Assembly (NCBI RefSeq): GCF_004168285.1
Contig: NZ_SEWF01000013.1
Location: forward strand, 62,001 to 126,000
Length of the DNA: 64,000 bases
Reading direction: 5' to 3'
Origin: Emticicia agri
GTDB taxonomy: Bacteria; Bacteroidota; Bacteroidia; Cytophagales; Spirosomataceae
The translations under genes were made by a program, and so were the position numbers. Under the pieces are notes generated by a model. The model was given only the letters and a program-made list of their open reading frames with translations. It did not search any database and was not told the DNA's origin. Shown piece by piece: positions 18,731 through 27,322 of the stretch. The number at the start of each line of letters is the position of its first letter. Positions within the stretch are counted from its first letter, which is position 1.

Positions 18731-19573
18731 ATGCTTCGGGTTCCATCTTCCATAAGTTCTAATGAATTTGAATCATTAAAGATTCAGGATATGACATTCG
18801 TGGCCTATCGAAACAATGTCTATCCGTCTCGCAACGAAATCTTTTTTGAAGAACACGCCATTGTTTATGTATTAGAAGGGGAGAAAAAATTTATCTCTCC
18901 AACACAAGATATTCATGTACAAAAAGGTCAGATTCTTTTCTTTCAGCGGGGTTGTTATTCGATGAATGAATCGATTGATACCAATTACCGAAGCCTTGTT
19001 TTTTTCTTCCCCGAAAGCCTTTTAAAAGAATTTGTTGCCCAGAACCTCTCTCTATTTGAAGATTCAAACGAAGGTGCTTTTGAACAGATATTAAGTTTAG
19101 AAAGCACCGAAAATTTTGACAAATTCGTCGATTCTTTGATTCCTTTCTTTAGTGCCAGAACTAACCTGATGAATCAGTTTCTAAAACTGAAATTCACAGA
19201 ATTAATGCTGCATCTACTCGAACTTGACCGCAGCAATCAGTTCAAAAGAACATTATTCAAGATATATCAAGGGCAAAAAATAGATTTAGGGTATCTTTTA
19301 GAAACCTATTACCTGAAACCATTATCTATTGAAGAATTAGCCCGTATCTCTGGCAGAAGTCTTTCTGTATTCAAAAGAGATTTCGAACAGCAATTTCATG
19401 CCTCTCCTGCGTCATGGATAAAAAACAAACGGCTGGAATATGCCTCTTTTCTCCTACAAAACACGTCTAAAAACGTCTCTGAAATCAGCCTTGAAATAGG
19501 CTACGAGAGCGTTTCTCACTTCATCAAAGCATTTAAAGAAAAATACGGTTTTACGCCCAAGAAAAACAAATGA
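18731..19573 (+). CDS. AraC-family transcriptional regulator
   Basis: A 280-residue regulator. The N-terminal 150 residues form a cupin-like sensing domain (KGQILFFQRGCYSMNE). The C-terminal 100 residues are two AraC helix-turn-helix motifs: LSIEELARISGRSLSVFKRDF, then VSEISLEIGYESVSHFIKAF and KEKYGFTPKK. The effector is unknown. The start is 7 bp past mlaF on the same strand, so it may be part of that operon; whether it controls the lipid transporter is not shown. Confidence 0.92.
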   Translation: MLRVPSSISSNEFESLKIQDMTFVAYRNNVYPSRNEIFFEEHAIVYVLEGEKKFISPTQDIHVQKGQILFFQRGCYSMNESIDTNYRSLVFFFPESLLKEFVAQNLSLFEDSNEGAFEQILSLESTENFDKFVDSLIPFFSARTNLMNQFLKLKFTELMLHLLELDRSNQFKRTLFKIYQGQKIDLGYLLETYYLKPLSIEELARISGRSLSVFKRDFEQQFHASPASWIKNKRLEYASFLLQNTSKNVSEISLEIGYESVSHFIKAFKEKYGFTPKKNK

Positions 19574-19688
19574 ACTAAAAACACTATTTTTTGGGCGTAT
19601 TTCGTTAATCCTTATTGAGATATTCTATTCAATTTTGTATTGTTCAATTCCTTATAAGCAAAGAGAAAATATTAATTGTTATTAATAT

Positions 19689-19808
19689 TTTAAACCACGG
19701 AGTTGCACAAAGCGACCGACGCTCGGTTAAATTCAGGGAGTTTCACAGAGTTTTTAGTAGAATCCACCGTGAAACTCCGTGCAAAACTCAGTGAAACTCT
19801 GTGGTAAA
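19689..19808. repeat. Gene-free inverted repeat upstream of leuC (MITE-like)
   Basis: The left end TTTAAACCACGGAGTTGCAC and the right end GTGAAACTCTGTGGTAAA are inverted copies of the ends around the GxxExxY gene at 23.5-24.0 kb. Internal units GGAGTTTCACAGAG and CCGTGAAACTCCGTGC repeat the theme. The A/T flanks continue the pairing (TAATATTTT on both sides). The left arm is broken by a GC-rich 17-mer. The element lies in the 301-bp gap between the AraC gene and leuC. Confidence 0.8.
19710..19726 (+). repeat. GC-rich 17-mer nested in the MITE-like repeat
   Basis: AAGCGACCGACGCTCGG perfectly fits AAGCGRMCGNCGCNCGG. It interrupts the CACGGAGTTTCAC series of the host repeat. Confidence 0.65.
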
Positions 19809-19874
19809 ATATTATTATTACTTACTTATAAGAATGGAATAATGAATTAAAAGAAAAAAACGCTTAAATATAAA

Positions 19875-21275
19875 ATGTCAACACCAAAATCACTATTCGA
19901 CAAAGTATGGGACTCGCACGTTGTTCGTAAAATCGAAGACGGCCCGGATGTGTTATTTATTGACCGTCACTTTATTCATGAAGTAACCAGCCCCGTAGCT
20001 TTTCTTGGCCTCGAAACCAGAGGAATCAATGTATTGTTCCCTGAACGTACATTTGCTACAGCCGATCATAATACACCTACAATTAACCAACACCTTCCGG
20101 TAGCAGACCCGCTTTCAGCTAACCAGTTAAAAGCATTGGAAACAAACACCGCAAAATACGGTATTTCTCACTGGGGTTTAGGGCATGCAAAAAACGGTAT
20201 TGTACACGTAGTAGGGCCAGAAAACGGTATTACGCAACCGGGTATGACAATCGTATGTGGCGACTCTCATACGTCAACACATGGTGCTTTTGGTGCGATT
20301 GCCTTTGGTATTGGTACATCAGAGGTAGAAATGGTACTTTCGTCGCAATGTATCATGCAGCCTAAACCTAAGAAAATGCGTGTAACCATCAATGGCAAAT
20401 TAGGTGCGGCCGTGATGCCGAAAGACGTAACGCTCTATATTATTTCTCAGCTATCTGCTGCAGGTGCAACAGGATACTTTGTAGAATATGCTGGAGAGGT
20501 TTTCAGAAATATGTCAATGGAAGGTCGCATGACGGTTTGTAATATGTCTATCGAAATGGGTGCCAGAGGCGGTATGATTGCTCCTGACGAAACGACTTTC
20601 GCTTATCTGAAAGGTAGAGAGTTAGCACCAAAAGGTGAGGCTTGGGACAAAGCAGTCGCTTACTGGAAAACCTTACCAACCGAAGAAGGAGCAACATTTG
20701 ATATAGAATATACATTTGATGCAGCTGATATTGAGCCCCAAATTACTTATGGTACAAACCCGGGTTTAGGCACAGGTATTTCTCAGAATATTCCTTTGGC
20801 TAATCAGGTAAAAGATGGTGAAGCGAGCTACAAAAAATCGTTGGGTTATATGGGCTTTACAGAAAACGAGCAGATAGTGGGTAAACCAATCGACTACGTT
20901 TTCTTAGGAAGCTGTACCAATGGTCGTATCGAAGATTTCCGTGCTTTTGCTTCTATTGTAAAAGGACGTAAAAAGGCAGCTAACGTAACGGCATGGTTAG
21001 TGCCGGGTTCGCACATCGTAGAATCGCAAATCAAAGAAGAAGGTATTTTGGATATTCTGAACGATGCCGGATTTGAATTACGTCAGCCGGGTTGCTCAGC
21101 TTGTTTGGCCATGAATGACGACAAGATTCCTGCAGGTAAATATGCAGTATCTACCTCAAACCGTAACTTCGAAGGCCGTCAGGGGCCGGGCGCACGTACG
21201 CTTTTGGCAAGTCCATTAGTGGCTGCCGCGGCTGCTGTAACAGGTAAAGTAACCGACCCAAGAGATTTAATCTAA
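19875..21275 (+). CDS. leuC: 3-isopropylmalate dehydratase large subunit
   Basis: A 466-residue aconitase-family subunit that isomerises 2-isopropylmalate to 3-isopropylmalate in leucine synthesis. The 4Fe-4S ligands are in [30 protein letters not shown] and GCSACLAMN. The length matches bacterial LeuC. It starts the group leuC-leuD-leuA-leuB. The MITE-like repeat is about 65 bp upstream, so it may sit in or near the promoter or leader. No attenuator with a leucine-rich leader peptide was found. Confidence 0.97.
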
Positions 21276-21290
21276 CATTAACACCCATTC

Positions 21291-21327
21291 GCTCAAGACA
21301 GAGTGCAAAGCAAACTTTGCCTTGAGC
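21291..21327 (+). other. Intercistronic hairpin between leuC and leuD
   Basis: GCTCAAG/CTTGAGC and GCAAAG/CTTTGC form an interrupted stem with a bulge in the 70-bp gap before the leuD ATG at 21346. It has no T run, so mRNA stabilisation or differential expression is more likely than termination. Confidence 0.5.
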
Positions 21328-21345
21328 TCAAAAATATTACGACAA

Positions 21346-21942
21346 ATGGCTTACGATAAATTTACAGTGCTTACAAGCACAGCAGTACCTATGCCTATCG
21401 AAAACGTAGATACTGACCAGATTATCCCTGCACGTTTCTTGAAAGCAACCAAACGTGAAGGCTTTGGCGATAACTTATTCAGAGACTGGCGTTATAATGG
21501 TGACGATACGCCAAAACAGGATTTCGTATTAAATAATCCTATTTATTCAGGTAAAATATTGGTAGGTGGCCGTAACTTCGGAAGTGGTTCAAGCCGTGAG
21601 CATGCTGCCTGGGCAATCTACGACTACGGTTTCCGTTGTGTGGTATCCAGTTTCTTTGCTGATATTTTTAAAGGAAATTCTATTAACATTGGTTTATTGC
21701 CTGTGCAGGTAAGTCCTGAGTTTCTGGACAAAATCTTCAAGGCCATAGAAGCTGACCCTAAAGCAGAATTGGAAGTAAGTTTACCGGAGCAAACCATTAC
21801 TATCCTGGCAACAGGCGAAAAAGAAAGCTTTGCTATCAACGGGTACAAAAAGCATAATATGATGAATGGCTTTGATGATATTGATTATCTGCAAGCCATG
21901 AAAAGCGAGATAAAAACATTTGCTGAGGAAAGTCTCTATTAA
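21346..21942 (+). CDS. leuD: 3-isopropylmalate dehydratase small subunit
   Basis: A 198-residue swivelling-domain subunit that partners LeuC. Family motifs are ENVDTDQIIPARFLK near the start and GGRNFGSGSSREHAAWAI in the centre. The start at 21346 (MAYDKFTVL) is preferred over an in-frame ATG 24 bp upstream, because homologues begin here and the upstream codons lie in the intercistronic hairpin. It is co-transcribed with leuC and the downstream leuA-type gene. Confidence 0.96.
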   Translation: MAYDKFTVLTSTAVPMPIENVDTDQIIPARFLKATKREGFGDNLFRDWRYNGDDTPKQDFVLNNPIYSGKILVGGRNFGSGSSREHAAWAIYDYGFRCVVSSFFADIFKGNSINIGLLPVQVSPEFLDKIFKAIEADPKAELEVSLPEQTITILATGEKESFAINGYKKHNMMNGFDDIDYLQAMKSEIKTFAEESLY

Positions 21943-21993
21943 TCAGCTAACGATAAAAGAGACAACAAAACCACTGCTTTAAGCACCAGCAAA

Positions 21994-23511
21994 ATGAGAT
22001 ATATAGAAATAATGGATACAACACTCCGTGATGGCGAACAGACCAGCGGAGTGTCTTTTTCTTCCAGTGAGAAACTGACCATTGCGCAGATATTGCTGAC
22101 AGAAGTAAAAGTTGACCGATTGGAGGTGGCTTCTGCAAGGGTATCTGACGGTGAGTTTCAGGCGGTGAAAAAAATTACTTCATGGGCAGCGGAAAATGGA
22201 CTATTGGATAAAATAGAAGTACTCACTTTTGTTGATGGAGATACTTCTGTAAAATGGATGCTGGAAGCAGGGGCGAAAGTGATGAACCTGCTTACCAAAG
22301 GCTCTTTGAATCATTTGACCCATCAGTTAAAAAAAACGCCCGAACAGCATTTTGAAGAAATTACTCAGGTAATTGCTTTGGCTCAATCAAACGATATACA
22401 ATGTAATGTTTACCTGGAAGATTGGAGCAATGGCATGAGAAATTCGTCTGACTATGTATTTCAATACCTTGATTTTCTTACCCAACAGCCTGTTAAACGT
22501 GTACTTTTACCTGATACGCTGGGTGTATTGACGCCAAAAGAATCTTACGATTTTATACATGCGATTGTTCAGCGTTACCCCAATACGCATTTTGATTTTC
22601 ATGCACATAACGACTATGATTTAAGCGTAGCCAATGTAATGGAAGCCATTAAAGCAGGTGCAAAAGGATTACATCTGACTGTCAATGGGATGGGCGAAAG
22701 AGCGGGCAATGCGCCTTTAGCCAGTACGATTGCTGTACTGAATGACTTTTTCCCTGAGATAAAAACCTCTGTGGTTGAAGAATCGCTGTATTCAATCAGT
22801 AAAATTGTAGAGACTTTTTCTGGTTTTGGTGTGCCTGTCAATAAACCGGTAGTAGGGGAGAACGTATTTACTCAAACGGCTGGTATTCATGCAGATGGAG
22901 ACAACAAAAACAATCTCTACTTCAATGATTTGATGCCTGAACGTTTCGGGCGTAAGCGTAAATATGCTTTAGGTAAAACTTCGGGTAAAGCTAATATTGA
23001 AAAGAATCTGCAGGAATTAGGTATTATACTCTCTCAGGCCGACTTAAAGAAAGTTACGCAACGCATTATTGAATTAGGAGATAGAAAAGAGGTAGTTACC
23101 AAAGAAGACTTACCTTATATTATATCCGATGTCTTAGATTCTAATGCTATTGAAGAGAGGGTAGAAGTACTTAATTATGTATTGACTCACTCAAAAAATC
23201 TTCGTCCATCTACTACTTTAATGGTTAAAATTGATGGGCATATTTTTGAGGAAAATGCACAGGGTGATGGGCAATATGATGCTTTTATGAATGCACTAAA
23301 GAAGATTTATGCTAAAAAGAAAGTAATTCTCCCGATGCTGACCGATTATGCCGTACGGATTCCGCCCGGTGGTAAGACAGATGCGCTTTGTGAAACAATC
23401 ATTACGTGGGCACATAATAATAAAGAGTTCAAAACCCGGGGCTTAGATTCAGACCAGACGGTTTCAGCCATCAAAGCGACCCAAAAAATGCTCAATTTGA
23501 TTCAGTTTTAA
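21994..23511 (+). CDS. leuA: 2-isopropylmalate synthase family protein (LeuA-type)
   Basis: A 505-residue HMGL-like enzyme. The N-terminal catalytic barrel shows MDTTLRDGEQTSG, the metal-binding FDFHAHNDYDLSVAN and GNAPLAST. A C-terminal LeuA-type regulatory domain (from about residue 385) has LMVKIDGHIFEENAQGDGQY. It would condense a 2-oxo acid with acetyl-CoA. Its place between leuD and leuB argues for 2-isopropylmalate synthase. The sequence differs from classical LeuA, and citramalate synthase (pyruvate as substrate, isoleucine route) is the main alternative. The stop lies 8 bp before the left inverted repeat of the GxxExxY element. Confidence 0.85.
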   Translation: MRYIEIMDTTLRDGEQTSGVSFSSSEKLTIAQILLTEVKVDRLEVASARVSDGEFQAVKKITSWAAENGLLDKIEVLTFVDGDTSVKWMLEAGAKVMNLLTKGSLNHLTHQLKKTPEQHFEEITQVIALAQSNDIQCNVYLEDWSNGMRNSSDYVFQYLDFLTQQPVKRVLLPDTLGVLTPKESYDFIHAIVQRYPNTHFDFHAHNDYDLSVANVMEAIKAGAKGLHLTVNGMGERAGNAPLASTIAVLNDFFPEIKTSVVEESLYSISKIVETFSGFGVPVNKPVVGENVFTQTAGIHADGDNKNNLYFNDLMPERFGRKRKYALGKTSGKANIEKNLQELGIILSQADLKKVTQRIIELGDRKEVVTKEDLPYIISDVLDSNAIEERVEVLNYVLTHSKNLRPSTTLMVKIDGHIFEENAQGDGQYDAFMNALKKIYAKKKVILPMLTDYAVRIPPGGKTDALCETIITWAHNNKEFKTRGLDSDQTVSAIKATQKMLNLIQF

Positions 23512-23519
23512 AATAGAGT

Positions 23520-23976
23520 TTTAACCACGGAGTTTCACTAAGTATGGCACTGAGTTACACGGAGTTGAATGATTTATCGGGTAAGATATTAAAAGCATCT
23601 TACGAGGTTCATACTGCTTTGGGACCTGGGCTTTTGGAAAGTGCTTATAAAGAATGCTTGTTTTATAAGTTATTTCAATCAGGTATTATAGCCGAAAAAG
23701 AGAAGCCAATGCCATTGATTTTTGAGGAAGTGAAATTAGAATGTGGGTATAGAATTGATATTTTAGTTGAAAGTCAAATTGTATTAGAAATAAAATCAGT
23801 AGAAGCTATTAGTGATATTCACCGAGCACAGGTTTTAACCTATATGAGGTTAGGTAAGTATAAGTTAGGCTATCTGATGAATTTTAACACAGTAAGTTTA
23901 AAAGAAGGAATAAAAAGATTCGTATTATAAACTCCGTGAAACATCGTGCAAAACTCGGTGTTACTCCGTGGTTAAA
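23520..23976. mobile_element. Inverted-repeat-bounded GxxExxY element in the leu operon
   Basis: A 457-bp unit with left end 23520-23567 and right end 23929-23976, imperfect inverted copies of about 48 bp. Matching parts are TTTAACCACGGAGTTTCAC (left) and, on the minus strand, TTTAACCACGGAGTAACAC (right), followed by GAGTT-type and CACGGAGTT units on both sides. The single gene begins in the left repeat and its stop touches the right repeat. It fits between leuA and leuB without breaking either. A related gene-free copy lies before leuC. Mobility is inferred from the repeats; no target duplication was identified. Confidence 0.65.
23544..23930 (+). CDS. GxxExxY protein (PD-(D/E)XK-like fold)
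   Basis: A 128-residue protein of the GxxExxY family. The naming motif is in ASYEVHTALGPGLLESAYKECL (G29-x-x-E-x-x-Y). The nuclease-like core is GYRIDILVESQIVLEIKSV, with D and ExK spaced as in PD-(D/E)XK enzymes, and IHRAQVLTYMRLGKYKLGYLMNFN follows. The family is usually assigned a PD-(D/E)XK-like fold; its biological role is unknown to me. The first codons (MALSYTEL) are encoded by the left inverted repeat, and the stop abuts the right repeat. It sits in the leuA-leuB gap and is probably transcribed with the leu genes. Confidence 0.9.
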   Translation: MALSYTELNDLSGKILKASYEVHTALGPGLLESAYKECLFYKLFQSGIIAEKEKPMPLIFEEVKLECGYRIDILVESQIVLEIKSVEAISDIHRAQVLTYMRLGKYKLGYLMNFNTVSLKEGIKRFVL

Positions 23977-23994
23977 TTCAATAAACCAAAATAA

Positions 23995-25065
23995 ATGAAA
24001 AAACATATCTTAGTTGTTCCCGGAGACGGTATTGGGCAGGAAGTAACAGCCGTTGGAAAAAAAGTAGTAGAAAAAATCGCTGAAAAATTCGGTCATGAAT
24101 TTACGTATGACGAAGCCCTGATTGGTCATGTAGCCATCGAAGCGACAGGAAGCCCACTACCGGAAGAAACCTTAGTGAAAATGCGTGCTTCTGACGCCGT
24201 ACTTTTTGGCGCCGTCGGCCACCCGAAATATGACAATGACCCAACTGCTAAAGTTCGTCCGGAACAAGGTTTGTTAAAAATGCGTAAAGAATTAGGCTTG
24301 TATGCCAATCTACGCCCGATTAAATTATTTGATGAGCTTTTAGGTGCTTCAAGTATTAAACCTGAAATTCTGAAAGGGTCAGATATTCTGTTTTTCCGTG
24401 AACTGACAGGGGATATATATTTTGGCGAAAAAGGTCGTAAAAACGACGGAGATACCGCCTATGATATTGCAGAATATAGCCGCTACGAAGTAGAACGCAT
24501 TGCCCGCAAAGCCTTTGATGCCGCTATGACCCGTGGTAAAAAAGTAATGTCGGTAGATAAAGCAAACGTATTGGAAACCAGCCGTTTGTGGAGAGAAACC
24601 GTACAGAAAGTAGCCAAAGAATATCCGGAAGTAACGGTTGAGCATCAGTTTGTTGATTCAGCAGCGATGTTACTAATCAAAAATCCAAGACAATTTGATG
24701 TAGTAGTTACGGCTAACCTTTTTGGTGACATATTAACAGATGAGGCTTCTCAGATTGCCGGGTCAATGGGTATGTTAGCTTCAGCATCAATAGGCGATAG
24801 CACAGGCGTTTATGAACCTATTCATGGTTCTGCACATGATATTACAGGCAAAGGCTTAGCTAATCCGATGGCATCGATTTTGTCGGCCGCTTTGATGTTA
24901 GATATTTCATTTGGCTTGAAAGCTGAAAGCGAAGCCATCATTTCGGCCGTTGAACAAACGTTAAAAGCAGGTTTCCGTACCGGAGATATTGCAGATGCTT
25001 CTACACCAAAAGACATGATTCTGGGTACAGATGCTATCGGCGAAGAGATTTTGAAGAGAATCTAA
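23995..25065 (+). CDS. leuB: 3-isopropylmalate dehydrogenase
   Basis: A 356-residue NAD-dependent beta-decarboxylating dehydrogenase that yields 2-oxoisocaproate, the last committed leucine step before transamination. Motifs are LVVPGDGIGQEV at the N-terminus, LRKELGLYANLRPIK-like substrate-binding residues, ELTGDIYFG, and the NAD-binding GSAHDITGKGLANPMA region. It starts 19 bp after the right repeat of the GxxExxY element and ends the leu operon at a hairpin terminator. Confidence 0.97.
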   Translation: MKKHILVVPGDGIGQEVTAVGKKVVEKIAEKFGHEFTYDEALIGHVAIEATGSPLPEETLVKMRASDAVLFGAVGHPKYDNDPTAKVRPEQGLLKMRKELGLYANLRPIKLFDELLGASSIKPEILKGSDILFFRELTGDIYFGEKGRKNDGDTAYDIAEYSRYEVERIARKAFDAAMTRGKKVMSVDKANVLETSRLWRETVQKVAKEYPEVTVEHQFVDSAAMLLIKNPRQFDVVVTANLFGDILTDEASQIAGSMGMLASASIGDSTGVYEPIHGSAHDITGKGLANPMASILSAALMLDISFGLKAESEAIISAVEQTLKAGFRTGDIADASTPKDMILGTDAIGEEILKRI

Positions 25066-25093
25066 ACATTACTATAGTTTTCTTATTTATCAG

Positions 25094-25130
25094 ACACGCC
25101 GGATACTTGTATAAGGCGTGTTCTTTTTTT
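25094..25130 (+). terminator. Terminator of the leu operon
   Basis: ACACGCC (25094-25100) and GGCGTGT (25115-25121) form a stem around a 14-nt loop, followed by a T-rich run to 25130. Confidence 0.85.
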
Positions 25131-25146
25131 CATCAGATTTATTAGT

Positions 25147-25154
25147 TAATTTTG
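25147..25154 (+). promoter_or_regulatory. -7 promoter box of the ompH-type gene
   Basis: TAATTTTG fits TAnnTTTG and lies about 25 bp before the ATG at 25180. The -33 region is only T-rich. Confidence 0.5.
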
Positions 25155-25179
25155 ATAAAAAATTATTTAAACACCCCCA

Positions 25180-25794
25180 ATGAAAAAGGTACTTCTTGTT
25201 TTAATCGTCGCTCTTATTAGTCAGCTTTCATTTGCTCAGGCTCCTAAATTCGGTTATGTATATGACGATTATGTCATGATAAATCTGAAAGAAATAAAAG
25301 ATTTACAGAATGAAATAACTACTAAAAGAGAAGAACTAACCAAGCAATTGGAGGCGAAAGGTCAAGTGTATCAGGAAAAATATGCGCTCTATCAGCAGTC
25401 GCTAAAAAATATAGCAAACGTAACTACTGAGTCATTAAATGCCGCTTTGAAAGAGGTACAAGATCTGAAAAAAGAAGCGGACGAGTTTCAGGCTAATGCC
25501 GATGTAGAGTTACAGACTCTTATAAGAAACAAATATAATGACATTCGTGCTAAAGTAGATGATGCTACCAAAAAAGTAGCGGCCGAAAAGGGGTATAAGT
25601 TTGTTTTCAGAAGAAATGCAGATGCCAATAACAGAGAATCGACCCCCATATTATTATACGCCAATGATAACGGTAGAGATAACCTGTCTGATGCTATTAT
25701 AATAAAAATGGGTAGCACACCACCAAAACCCCAAACTCCGGCTCCTGCTGCATCAACTCCGGCAGCAAAGAAACCTGCGCCTAAAAAATCATAG
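25180..25794 (+). CDS. Skp/OmpH-family periplasmic chaperone
   Basis: A 204-residue secreted protein. The signal peptide MKKVLLVLIVALISQLSFAQ is followed by the Skp/OmpH pattern: a short strand (FGYVYDDYVM), a long charged coiled-coil region (about 35-120) and a C-terminal strand. The last 30 residues are a Pro/Ala/Lys-rich tail (PKPQTPAPAAS). Family members escort outer-membrane proteins through the periplasm. The gene is not next to bamA or lpxD here. Function in this species is inferred from the fold. It is convergent with murE and shares a terminator with it. Confidence 0.85.
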   Translation: MKKVLLVLIVALISQLSFAQAPKFGYVYDDYVMINLKEIKDLQNEITTKREELTKQLEAKGQVYQEKYALYQQSLKNIANVTTESLNAALKEVQDLKKEADEFQANADVELQTLIRNKYNDIRAKVDDATKKVAAEKGYKFVFRRNADANNRESTPILLYANDNGRDNLSDAIIIKMGSTPPKPQTPAPAASTPAAKKPAPKKS

Positions 25795-25818
25795 GTATTG
25801 AGTCATGTATAAATAAAA

Positions 25819-25850
25819 ATGGGTGATTGAATTCTCTATCAATCACCCAT
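25819..25850. terminator. Bidirectional terminator between ompH-type gene and murE
   Basis: ATGGGTGATTGA and TCAATCACCCAT form a perfect 12-bp stem with an 8-nt loop. A-rich and T-rich flanks suit both directions. Confidence 0.88.
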
Positions 25851-25858
25851 TTTCAGTT

Positions 25859-27322
25859 CTATTTCTTCCAGATTTCATCAAAGGCTTCCTGTAGTACTTC
25901 TTTATCGTCAAAATGATGTTTTACGCCTTTGATTTCCTGATAGGTTTCATGTCCCTTGCCAGCTACTAATATAATGTCTTGCGGACGGGCTATTTTTACC
26001 GCTTCAAATATCGCTTCATGTCTGTCTTCAATGGTTTGTACTTTATTCATGTAAATAGAAGAGACACCTGCTTCCATTTGTCCGAGAATAACCATCGGGT
26101 CTTCGTTCCTTGGGTTATCAGAGGTCAAAAATACACGATTGCTGAATTTACAGGCAATCTCTGCCATAATCGGGCGTTTAGTCGCATCTCTGTTGCCACC
26201 ACAACCCACTACGGTTATAATCTGCTGGTTTCCTTCCTGTAAATCTACGATGGTTTCCAGTACATTTTTTAGTGCATCAGGCGTATGGGCATAATCTACA
26301 ATACCTACAATATGGTTTTGTGAAACTACCTGCTCAAATCTGCCTGCCGGAGGTTGAATATCAGACAACTGCATCAGTACTTCGTCAGGGTTTTCGCCTA
26401 AAAGAACAGCCGCACCATATACACCCAGAAGATTATAGGCATTAAAAGCACCAATGAGTTTAAACCAAACCTCACGGTTATCAATATCCATCTGTAAGCC
26501 AAATAAGCCACAAGCCAGTATTTTACCCTTAAAACTGCCAATATTTCTTAATGAATACGATTCTTTTCGGGCAGCGGTATTCTGAATCATGATTTTACCG
26601 TTTTTATCGTCGGTATTTACAAGGGCAAATGCTGAGGCCGGTAACTGGTCGAAAAAGCCTTTTTTGGCTCTGATATAATTATCAAAGGTTTCGTGGAAAT
26701 CGAGGTGATCGTGGGTAATATTGGTAAATATACCTCCTGCAAAATGAAGCCCTGCAATCCGTTCCTGTACAACCGAATGAGAACTTACCTCCATAAAACA
26801 GTAAGTAGCACCCTTCTGAACCATTTCATGCAATAATTCATTGATTTTTACCGAGTCTGGTGTGGTATGGGTAGAAGGAATAATTTCGTCATCAATCTGA
26901 TTCTGTACGGTAGAAAGTAGCCCGCAGCGATACCCTAATTTACGGAATAAACGGAATAGGAGGGTAACTGATGAGGTTTTGCCATTAGTACCTGTTACGC
27001 CCACCAATTTTAATTTTTTTGATGGATTTCCATAAAAATTAGCTGCCAGTAAACCCATTGTCCGGGCCGAATTTTCTACTTGCAGATAGGTTATGTTTTC
27101 CTGTAATACTTCCGGTAATCGTTCGCAAAGAATAGTTTTTGCCCCCAGCTCTATCGCTTTTTCAATAAAATTATGCCCATCTACCTGGGTGCCACCAATG
27201 GCTACAAACAGACTTCCGTTTTTTACCTGACGGGAATCAAAAACAATATTCTCTATTTCAATATCGGTTATGCCCGAAACGGCCTGCAAAGGAACTTTAT
27301 ATAAAATGTCGCTTAGAATCAT
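25859..27322 (-). CDS. murE: UDP-MurNAc-tripeptide synthetase MurE
   Basis: A 487-residue Mur ligase that adds the third amino acid to UDP-MurNAc-Ala-Glu. It has the ATP-binding loop GVTGTNGKTSSVTLLF, the motif FTNITHDHLDFHETF and the C-terminal specificity motif LTSDNPRNEDP. DNPR is typical of enzymes using meso-diaminopimelate, as expected for Bacteroidota. The start at 27322 (MILSDILYKV) is chosen over an in-frame ATG 39 bp upstream. It is a lone gene rather than part of the dcw cluster; murF also stands alone at 36 kb. Confidence 0.95.
   Translation of the reverse strand: MILSDILYKVPLQAVSGITDIEIENIVFDSRQVKNGSLFVAIGGTQVDGHNFIEKAIELGAKTILCERLPEVLQENITYLQVENSARTMGLLAANFYGNPSKKLKLVGVTGTNGKTSSVTLLFRLFRKLGYRCGLLSTVQNQIDDEIIPSTHTTPDSVKINELLHEMVQKGATYCFMEVSSHSVVQERIAGLHFAGGIFTNITHDHLDFHETFDNYIRAKKGFFDQLPASAFALVNTDDKNGKIMIQNTAARKESYSLRNIGSFKGKILACGLFGLQMDIDNREVWFKLIGAFNAYNLLGVYGAAVLLGENPDEVLMQLSDIQPPAGRFEQVVSQNHIVGIVDYAHTPDALKNVLETIVDLQEGNQQIITVVGCGGNRDATKRPIMAEIACKFSNRVFLTSDNPRNEDPMVILGQMEAGVSSIYMNKVQTIEDRHEAIFEAVKIARPQDIILVAGKGHETYQEIKGVKHHFDDKEVLQEAFDEIWKK

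Follow-up and report, generated by a model that had tools for sequence, protein, structure and literature searches.

The leuA-leuB gap of Emticicia agri

A 64-kb stretch of the Emticicia agri genome, hereafter the window, carries between leuA and leuB a gene of the GxxExxY family that is enclosed by inverted repeats. The genome is designated G000 in the comparisons below, and other genomes are labeled in the same manner. The gap between the leuA stop codon and the leuB start codon (Table 1) is filled by an imperfect inverted repeat with one open reading frame (ORF) inside it. An initial annotation of this DNA, made from its letters, had correctly described repeats that bracket a single GxxExxY gene, but the arms are 47 nt long rather than 48. 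They are 79% complementary and lie 363 nt apart, and of the 10 inverted pairs that the window yields at distances up to 800 bp, this one is the longest. The local alignment score between the two flanks is 22.5, compared with a maximum of 12 over 200 shuffles. Arms and gene overlap, as the ATG falls within the left arm and the TAA directly adjoins the right one, a detail that the initial annotation lacked.

The encoded protein lies above the curated cut-offs of the GxxExxY/PDDEXK_3 family, both for PF13366 (E 7.3e-39, 133.2 bits, cut-off 22) and for TIGR04256 (E 4.2e-40, 136.7 bits, cut-off 35), and carries the conserved family residues. Columns that are invariant across 39 sequences comprise G29xxE32xxY35, D72, E82xK84, and Q96xxxY100. 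The predicted structure adopts a PD-(D/E)XK fold with a predicted local distance difference test (pLDDT) score of 95.1. Profile matches, invariant residues, and model agree with the PD-(D/E)XK-like core proposed in the initial annotation and predict a nuclease fold with an intact motif. With PF13366 as its sole Pfam match at E<=0.001, the protein does not belong to the S23p four-helix proteins, and no transposase match was found at this threshold among Pfam and TIGR profiles. No Rfam match at the gathering score was found within window positions 19000-26000.

Table 1. Features of the leu region, in window coordinates
Feature	Position	Strand	Remarks
Gene-free palindrome before leuC	about 19690..19808		A-type family; small insert GCGACCGACGCTCGGTT; DNA hairpin z -4.57; missing before leuC in G006 and G007
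leuA	21994..23511	+	Upstream border; name from position and the initial annotation, matched between genomes, no family-library search
Left arm	23520..23566	+	CRCNRAG units directed at the gene; holds the start codon; conserved in G006, G007, G003, and G001
GxxExxY gene	23544..23930	+	128 aa; PF13366 and TIGR04256 matches; PD-(D/E)XK fold model
Right arm	23930..23976	-	Starts at the stop codon; noncoding
leuB	23995..25065	+	Downstream border; named as for leuA (position and initial annotation, matched between genomes, no family-library search)

Inverted repeats at GxxExxY genes elsewhere

GxxExxY genes are associated with inverted repeats far above controls. The main set examined comprised the best 80 of 549 relatives from a contig search; it is biased toward relatives of the window protein, and many of its loci come from metagenome bins. 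Inverted flanks reached a score of at least 14 in 53 of these 80 loci and at least 18 in 30. The corresponding counts were 11 and 5 for 320 other ORFs in the same loci, 3 and 1 for 400 random positions, and 39 and 14 for 397 pairs of flanks crossed between loci. Inverted repeats, as the initial annotation had proposed to test, thus flank such genes more often than chance. Of 28 same-genus rows, 18 scored at least 14; the 28 take in four short fragments and a further four loci that are truncated at contig ends and have misplaced flanks. A class-wide set of 30 loci, reduced to 26 by removal of four cut by contig ends, gave 16 at this score (control 4/47). Thirteen further class loci, hand-picked mostly from repeat-rich genomes and including two already in the class set, yielded nine.

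The arms are arrays of inward-facing C[AG]CN[AG]A[GT] units that are alike within a locus and unlike between loci. At least two units on each side point inward in 66 of 125 loci and outward in eight, and 3.2% of 370 random windows hold at least two units in one orientation; this test was run without fragments and cut loci, which kept 19 of the 28 genus rows. The initial annotation had envisaged repeats of the CCACGGAGTTTCAC type at GxxExxY genes. Inverted repeats are indeed present, but a single conserved motif at all of these genes had to be rejected, as the arms fall into several dialects. Arm dialect tracks the protein tree: for the 77 rows with units it requires 25 changes, and none of 300 shuffles required fewer than 30. 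This agreement may reflect either descent or specificity.

A second kind of gene is enclosed in the same way. Genes for the four-helix protein of 23S rRNA intervening sequences (23S-IVP, here IVP; PF05635) could be placed at loci for 30 of 41 rows in the genus, and three cut loci were removed. Twenty of the remaining 27 are bracketed at a score of at least 14, compared with 1 of 53 controls. Their arms mostly belong to other dialects, for example GTTATTGG, GAATTAGCGAATGG, and GCTTTAGGC.

Gene-free palindromes in the same genome

The arms at leuA-leuB belong to a dispersed family, termed A-type. A loose pattern finds 58 A-type half-sites in G000, compared with seven for the reversed control. 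These form 32 clusters, 16 of which have both arms within 200 bp and span 85-140 bp. The related gene-free repeat that the initial annotation placed before leuC is real and is one of these 16, and only one A-type pair in the genome encloses a GxxExxY gene. Among 20 mapped A-type loci, two are overlapped by an ORF and the others lie between ORFs. Folded as DNA hairpins, three A-type copies give z values of -4.6 to -5.9, and one copy from G091 gives -10.7. No consistent target-site duplication was seen by eye at the flanks of 20 gene-free copies, whose boundaries are inexact.

G000 has two GxxExxY genes. The second (C2:144893-145231) is flanked on each side by a whole palindrome of another family, B-type, the right-hand one having been recognized by eye. 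B-type half-sites number 82 (control 2) and form 30 paired loci, with clustering based on 76 of the 82 hits after six with three mismatches were excluded. Each GxxExxY gene of this genome thus has its own palindrome family nearby, A-type at the first and B-type at the second. Palindrome doublets are dispersed intergenically, with 16 paired loci of the A-type and 30 of the B-type in G000, and examples occur in G036, G091, and G143. The genome also has four Y1 transposase genes; the one examined has CCCGTAGGGAC repeats beside it rather than palindromes of either family.

Several features of individual palindromes deserve mention in their own right. The A-type palindromes L019 (at window position 19712), L023, L025, and L029 carry the insert GCGACCGACGCTCGGTT or a variant of it, with CGTC on one strand, and this insert is possibly a CGTC-type repetitive extragenic palindromic sequence (REP) nested in the A palindrome. 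A subset (L001, L006, L017, L019, L025, and L026) has a common outer sequence resembling AAGTAAAGAGAAAATATTAATTG, which suggests a longer element. Some copies in G036 terminate in GTTACTACTCA/TGAGTAGTAAC. Elsewhere in the window, positions 1937-2145 hold a gene-free nested palindrome of the dialect GAATTGTGAATGGCGAATTAGCGAATA that resembles the arms of a PF05635 gene (G000:C8:167472, L083) and is probably an IVP-type counterpart.

Co-distribution of repeat and gene

The pattern ACCACNRAGN{1,3}CRCNRAG was counted in 149 genomes of the class, with gene presence judged by TIGR04256. The 103 genomes with the gene hold 813 copies (reversed control 48), and the 46 without it hold 52 (control 18). 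At least four copies are present in 42 of the 103 genomes and in 3 of the 46 (Fisher p 1.3e-5). Genomes of one class are not independent, and a within-family test answers the matter of kinship in part: of 17 families that include both states, 13 are positive, one is negative, and three are ties (sign p 0.0018). In a regression on log copies, using uncorrected counts, t was 3.14 for GxxExxY, 2.61 for genome size, 1.24 for Y1 transposase, and -0.32 for IVP. Under a strict correction that subtracts two copies for each of the 316 genes, 497 copies are left, and 33 of 103 genomes versus 3 of 46 have at least four (p 7e-4). Repeat and gene are therefore co-distributed, more weakly after strict correction.

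The leuA-leuB slot in relatives

Ten related genomes were compared; an eleventh, G008, is fragmented and gave no leu match. A-type arms with a GxxExxY gene occupy the leuA-leuB gap of G000, G001, G003, G006, and G007. The gap of G004 holds a different GxxExxY gene (44% identity) with other arms. PF05635 genes within inverted repeats are found in G009 and G010, the latter copy with an internal stop, and an IVP remnant is found in G002. Nothing recognizable was seen in the gap of G005. The comparison suggested in the initial annotation therefore revealed varied contents, one of them without any recognizable feature, but no exact empty site. Not all relatives carry the gene and GxxExxY genes elsewhere have repeats, so neither of the two outcomes that had been named as refutations was obtained.

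On a leuCDAB tree, whose seven inner branches are all supported, at least five changes of content are needed with the remnant counted as IVP, and four when the empty state is excluded. The chosen outgroup does not form one side of a branch, the change counts are independent of the root, and the base composition of G004 is odd. The leuA, leuB, and leuC+D trees all keep G009 and G001 as sisters, although the two differ in slot content. For G003 and G010, a second pair with unlike contents, a sister relationship is recovered in the joint and leuC+D trees and in neither the leuA nor the leuB tree.

Between swaps, the gene seems to be inherited together with the operon, because its synonymous differences fall within or slightly below the range of the leu genes or, for one pair, just above it (G000-G006, 0.53 versus 0.40-0.50; G000-G007, 0.37 versus 0.45-0.52). 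The ratio of nonsynonymous to synonymous change, with the first eight codons excluded, is 0.05-0.16 in nine of ten pairs and saturated in one, which points to purifying selection on the protein. Arm identity in the same orthologue pairs is 80-100%, and 33-40 of 40-41 aligned bases of the right arm are identical among the five orthologues (gaps uncounted). Such arm conservation could be due to selection or to correction by other copies. The GxxExxY gene, in contrast to an ordinary transposon, has been kept at one site in five species.

Other gaps were also compared. The gap upstream of leuC lacks the A-type palindrome in G006 and G007, and G000 also differs over about 45-55 bp on each side, so no exact boundary is defined. 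Among orthologous gaps there is one case of presence and absence, a B palindrome in L008 versus L277, and its ends are not clean. In five genomes (L124-L128, from G004, G009, G005, G002, and G010), a Y1-transposase-like ORF, so labeled from reading the sequence and without a family search, takes the place of the G000 palindrome before leuC, and in several of these it is accompanied by GTAGAGAC...GTCTCTAC repeats. Between leuC and leuD, G009 (L125) and G010 (L128) have another PF05635 gene, enclosed in repeats of the GCTTTATGC type; the remaining eight genomes have a gap of 36-102 bp there. Gene-free palindromes of three more dialects (GCTTTAAGCTATAGGC, TTAGCTATTAGCT, and GAATGA) lie in the leuD-leuA gap of L122, L123, and L125-L128.

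Interpretation and competing explanations

The reading that we tentatively prefer is that the leuA-leuB feature is a gene-bearing member of a dispersed palindromic repeat family: a nuclease gene inside a palindrome of the kind formed by REP doublets forming hairpins (REPINs) or by 23S rRNA intervening sequences (IVSs), and probably acting on such palindromes. The GxxExxY gene would take the place of the short loop across which the two arms of gene-free copies face each other. Its product would be a RecB/Cas4/Hjc-like PD-(D/E)XK nuclease that recognizes the hairpin or cruciform of CRCNRAG-array palindromes and cuts or trims it, after which repair might copy palindromes to new sites or keep the arms matched. 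The gene at leuA-leuB would be mostly vertically inherited, with occasional replacement of the whole arm-gene-arm unit in the intergenic slot, including by units with a four-helix gene. Gene-free palindromes would depend on the GxxExxY gene as REPINs do on REP-associated tyrosine transposases (RAYTs). A predicted Cas4/Hjc-like fold, together with palindromes that are co-distributed with the gene, suggests action on hairpin or cruciform DNA. Beyond the observed association, unit orientation, copy families, co-distribution, slot exchange, and arm conservation, we infer DNA cleavage, repeat recognition, and repeat copying by the protein.

Several observations weigh against this interpretation. 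To our knowledge, no nuclease activity is known for GxxExxY proteins. In the main set, 27 of 80 loci score below 14. The notion that the gene always sits in a palindrome loop was rejected, because the second gene of G000 has a whole B palindrome on either side. Nor does every element have gene-free copies, since the arms of G004, sought with up to three mismatches, are absent elsewhere in that genome. The agreement between dialects and protein tree may be mere common descent, and slot exchange could be explained by homologous recombination between species. Neither a clean empty site in the gaps of relatives nor, by eye, a target-site duplication at copy flanks was found. The proposal in the initial annotation of a minimal mobile unit with a non-autonomous partner is supported in part, by the many gene-free copies, and weakened by these two negatives and by a gene kept in place in five species.

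The co-distribution also has its weaknesses. Repeat counts take in the arms that surround genes, which is the reason for the strict correction, and genome size also predicts copy number. After correction, the median falls to 0, the rank test loses significance (p 0.09), and the within-family outcome becomes 12 positive, two negative, and three ties. Ten genomes hold 388 of the 813 copies, so that one third of the genomes account for the link between repeat and gene. GxxExxY genes are multi-copy, with 316 matches in the 103 genomes and up to 20 in one. Three genomes have at least four repeats and no detected gene (G038 with 25, G058 with 7, and G068 with 4). That the G038 repeats are coding repeats was considered and rejected, and the genome is a true exception: three stretches at contig ends (L250-L252) show tandem palindromic arrays with a period of about 150 bp. 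Nine GxxExxY genomes without Y1 transposase hold 22 copies, 15 of them in G081, with a median of 0, and therefore RAYTs may help.

This last point bears on the possibility, unlikely in our view if by no great measure, that another enzyme such as a RAYT/Y1 transposase spreads the palindromes, and that GxxExxY and four-helix genes are selfish or host genes carried between the arms without acting on them. Such a passenger role would suit a leuA-leuB gap that holds either GxxExxY or IVP genes, the bracketing of IVP genes too, the Y1 transposase present in 94 of the 103 GxxExxY genomes and the scarcity of the repeat in the other nine, and the weaker rank contrast after correction. It accords poorly with the regression on uncorrected counts, in which CRCNRAG copies go with GxxExxY rather than with RAYT or IVP, and with the mere eight copies in the 23 genomes that have IVP without GxxExxY. 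The Y1 gene examined in G000, one of four, adjoins a different repeat rather than A or B palindromes.

Distinctly unlikely, we think, is an explanation at the RNA level, whereby pairing of the arms in the transcript conceals the start codon and creates an RNase III substrate. The element would then persist because processing removes it from the operon message, and any movement would be incidental. The predicted RNA of the one element folded does pair arm to arm over the full length (-129.3 kcal/mol, z -5.33), the left arm holds the start codon in five orthologues, and a Coxiella IVS of the same plan is, in the accessible part of the source, cleaved by RNase III in vitro (PMC4990558). The many gene-free copies and the nuclease fold would be left unexplained. 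We give still less credence to a homing-like process in which the nuclease cuts gene-free palindromes and repair copies the gene into the loop, making the palindromes target rather than product. Gene-bearing and gene-free A palindromes share the same arm design and whole units swap in one slot, but a GxxExxY gene occurs in only one A-type pair of G000, the gene stays at its site and passes on together with the operon, and no filled and empty pair with matching arms was found. Chance or an annotation artefact is hardly credible: short repeats are common in AT-rich gaps, but the flank-symmetry and unit-orientation controls speak against it.

Returning to the preferred reading of a nuclease acting on its palindromes, a more general form of it is possible but held with clear hesitation. 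GxxExxY proteins might be dedicated nucleases of a widespread REPIN-like CRCNRAG system and, together with IVP genes, form a gene-in-hairpin class that exchanges units at fixed slots, of which 23S rRNA IVSs would be the special case in rRNA. If association means action, the GxxExxY nuclease family would gain a substrate and a role, a second enzyme family would join RAYTs in the upkeep of palindromic repeats, and 23S rRNA intervening sequences, a long-standing puzzle, would be tied to intergenic elements.

Comparison with known systems

The open-access PubMed Central (PMC) literature, as far as its text was accessible, gave no study of the function of GxxExxY (PF13366, PDDEXK_3, TIGR04256), only passing mentions such as that in PMC8934634, in keeping with the suggestion of the initial annotation that the element is undescribed. 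Repeat strings in open-access PMC texts led only to papers unrelated by title. The frequent framing of the gene by repeats, and its usual presence in genomes that are rich in the repeat, suggest a little-studied partnership of nuclease and repeat family.

One close parallel is the REPIN-RAYT system. According to the portions of the sources consulted, RAYT genes have their own repeat type nearby (P. fluorescens SBW25), yield few plasmid records, and are found where the repeats are commoner (PMC3116915, PMC8049555). Here, too, dispersed intergenic palindromes consist of two inverted arms (about 65-185 bp), each GxxExxY gene of G000 has its own repeat type nearby, repeats are commoner where GxxExxY is present, and plasmid records are few (7 of 72,556 match the window protein at E 1e-5). 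The element is not a REPIN-RAYT member, because its enzyme is a PF13366 PD-(D/E)XK protein and not an HUH/Y1 transposase. Furthermore, the arms are CRCNRAG arrays whereas REPs are GTAG-tagged, the gene may sit between the arms of one palindrome, GxxExxY genes often number several per genome whereas RAYTs are single-copy, and mobilization of the repeat by the GxxExxY protein is a hypothesis built on co-distribution.

GTAG- and CGTC-tagged REPs are likewise short palindromes, and CGTC-tagged ones are described in the accessible part of PMC3733652 as occurring in Bacteroidetes without a known dedicated transposase. Neither tag stands at the ends of CRCNRAG arrays, although some of them carry an inserted motif that contains CGTC. 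Like miniature inverted-repeat transposable elements (MITEs), the gene-free copies share the ends of the gene-bearing copy, and some have extra conserved outer sequence. Unlike MITEs with their autonomous transposons, the protein has no transposase match, no duplication was seen by eye, and the arms vary between gene-bearing loci.

The 23S rRNA IVS is a further close parallel. In the part of PMC4990558 available, it is an inverted-repeat stem whose loop carries a single small ORF, theorized to have served mobility. The leuA-leuB element has the same plan of a stem that encloses one ORF, and the same slot holds a PF05635 gene in G009 and G010. It differs in that it lies between genes of a protein operon rather than in a 23S rRNA helix, and in that it carries a GxxExxY gene where the ORF of the IVS encodes the S23p four-helix protein.
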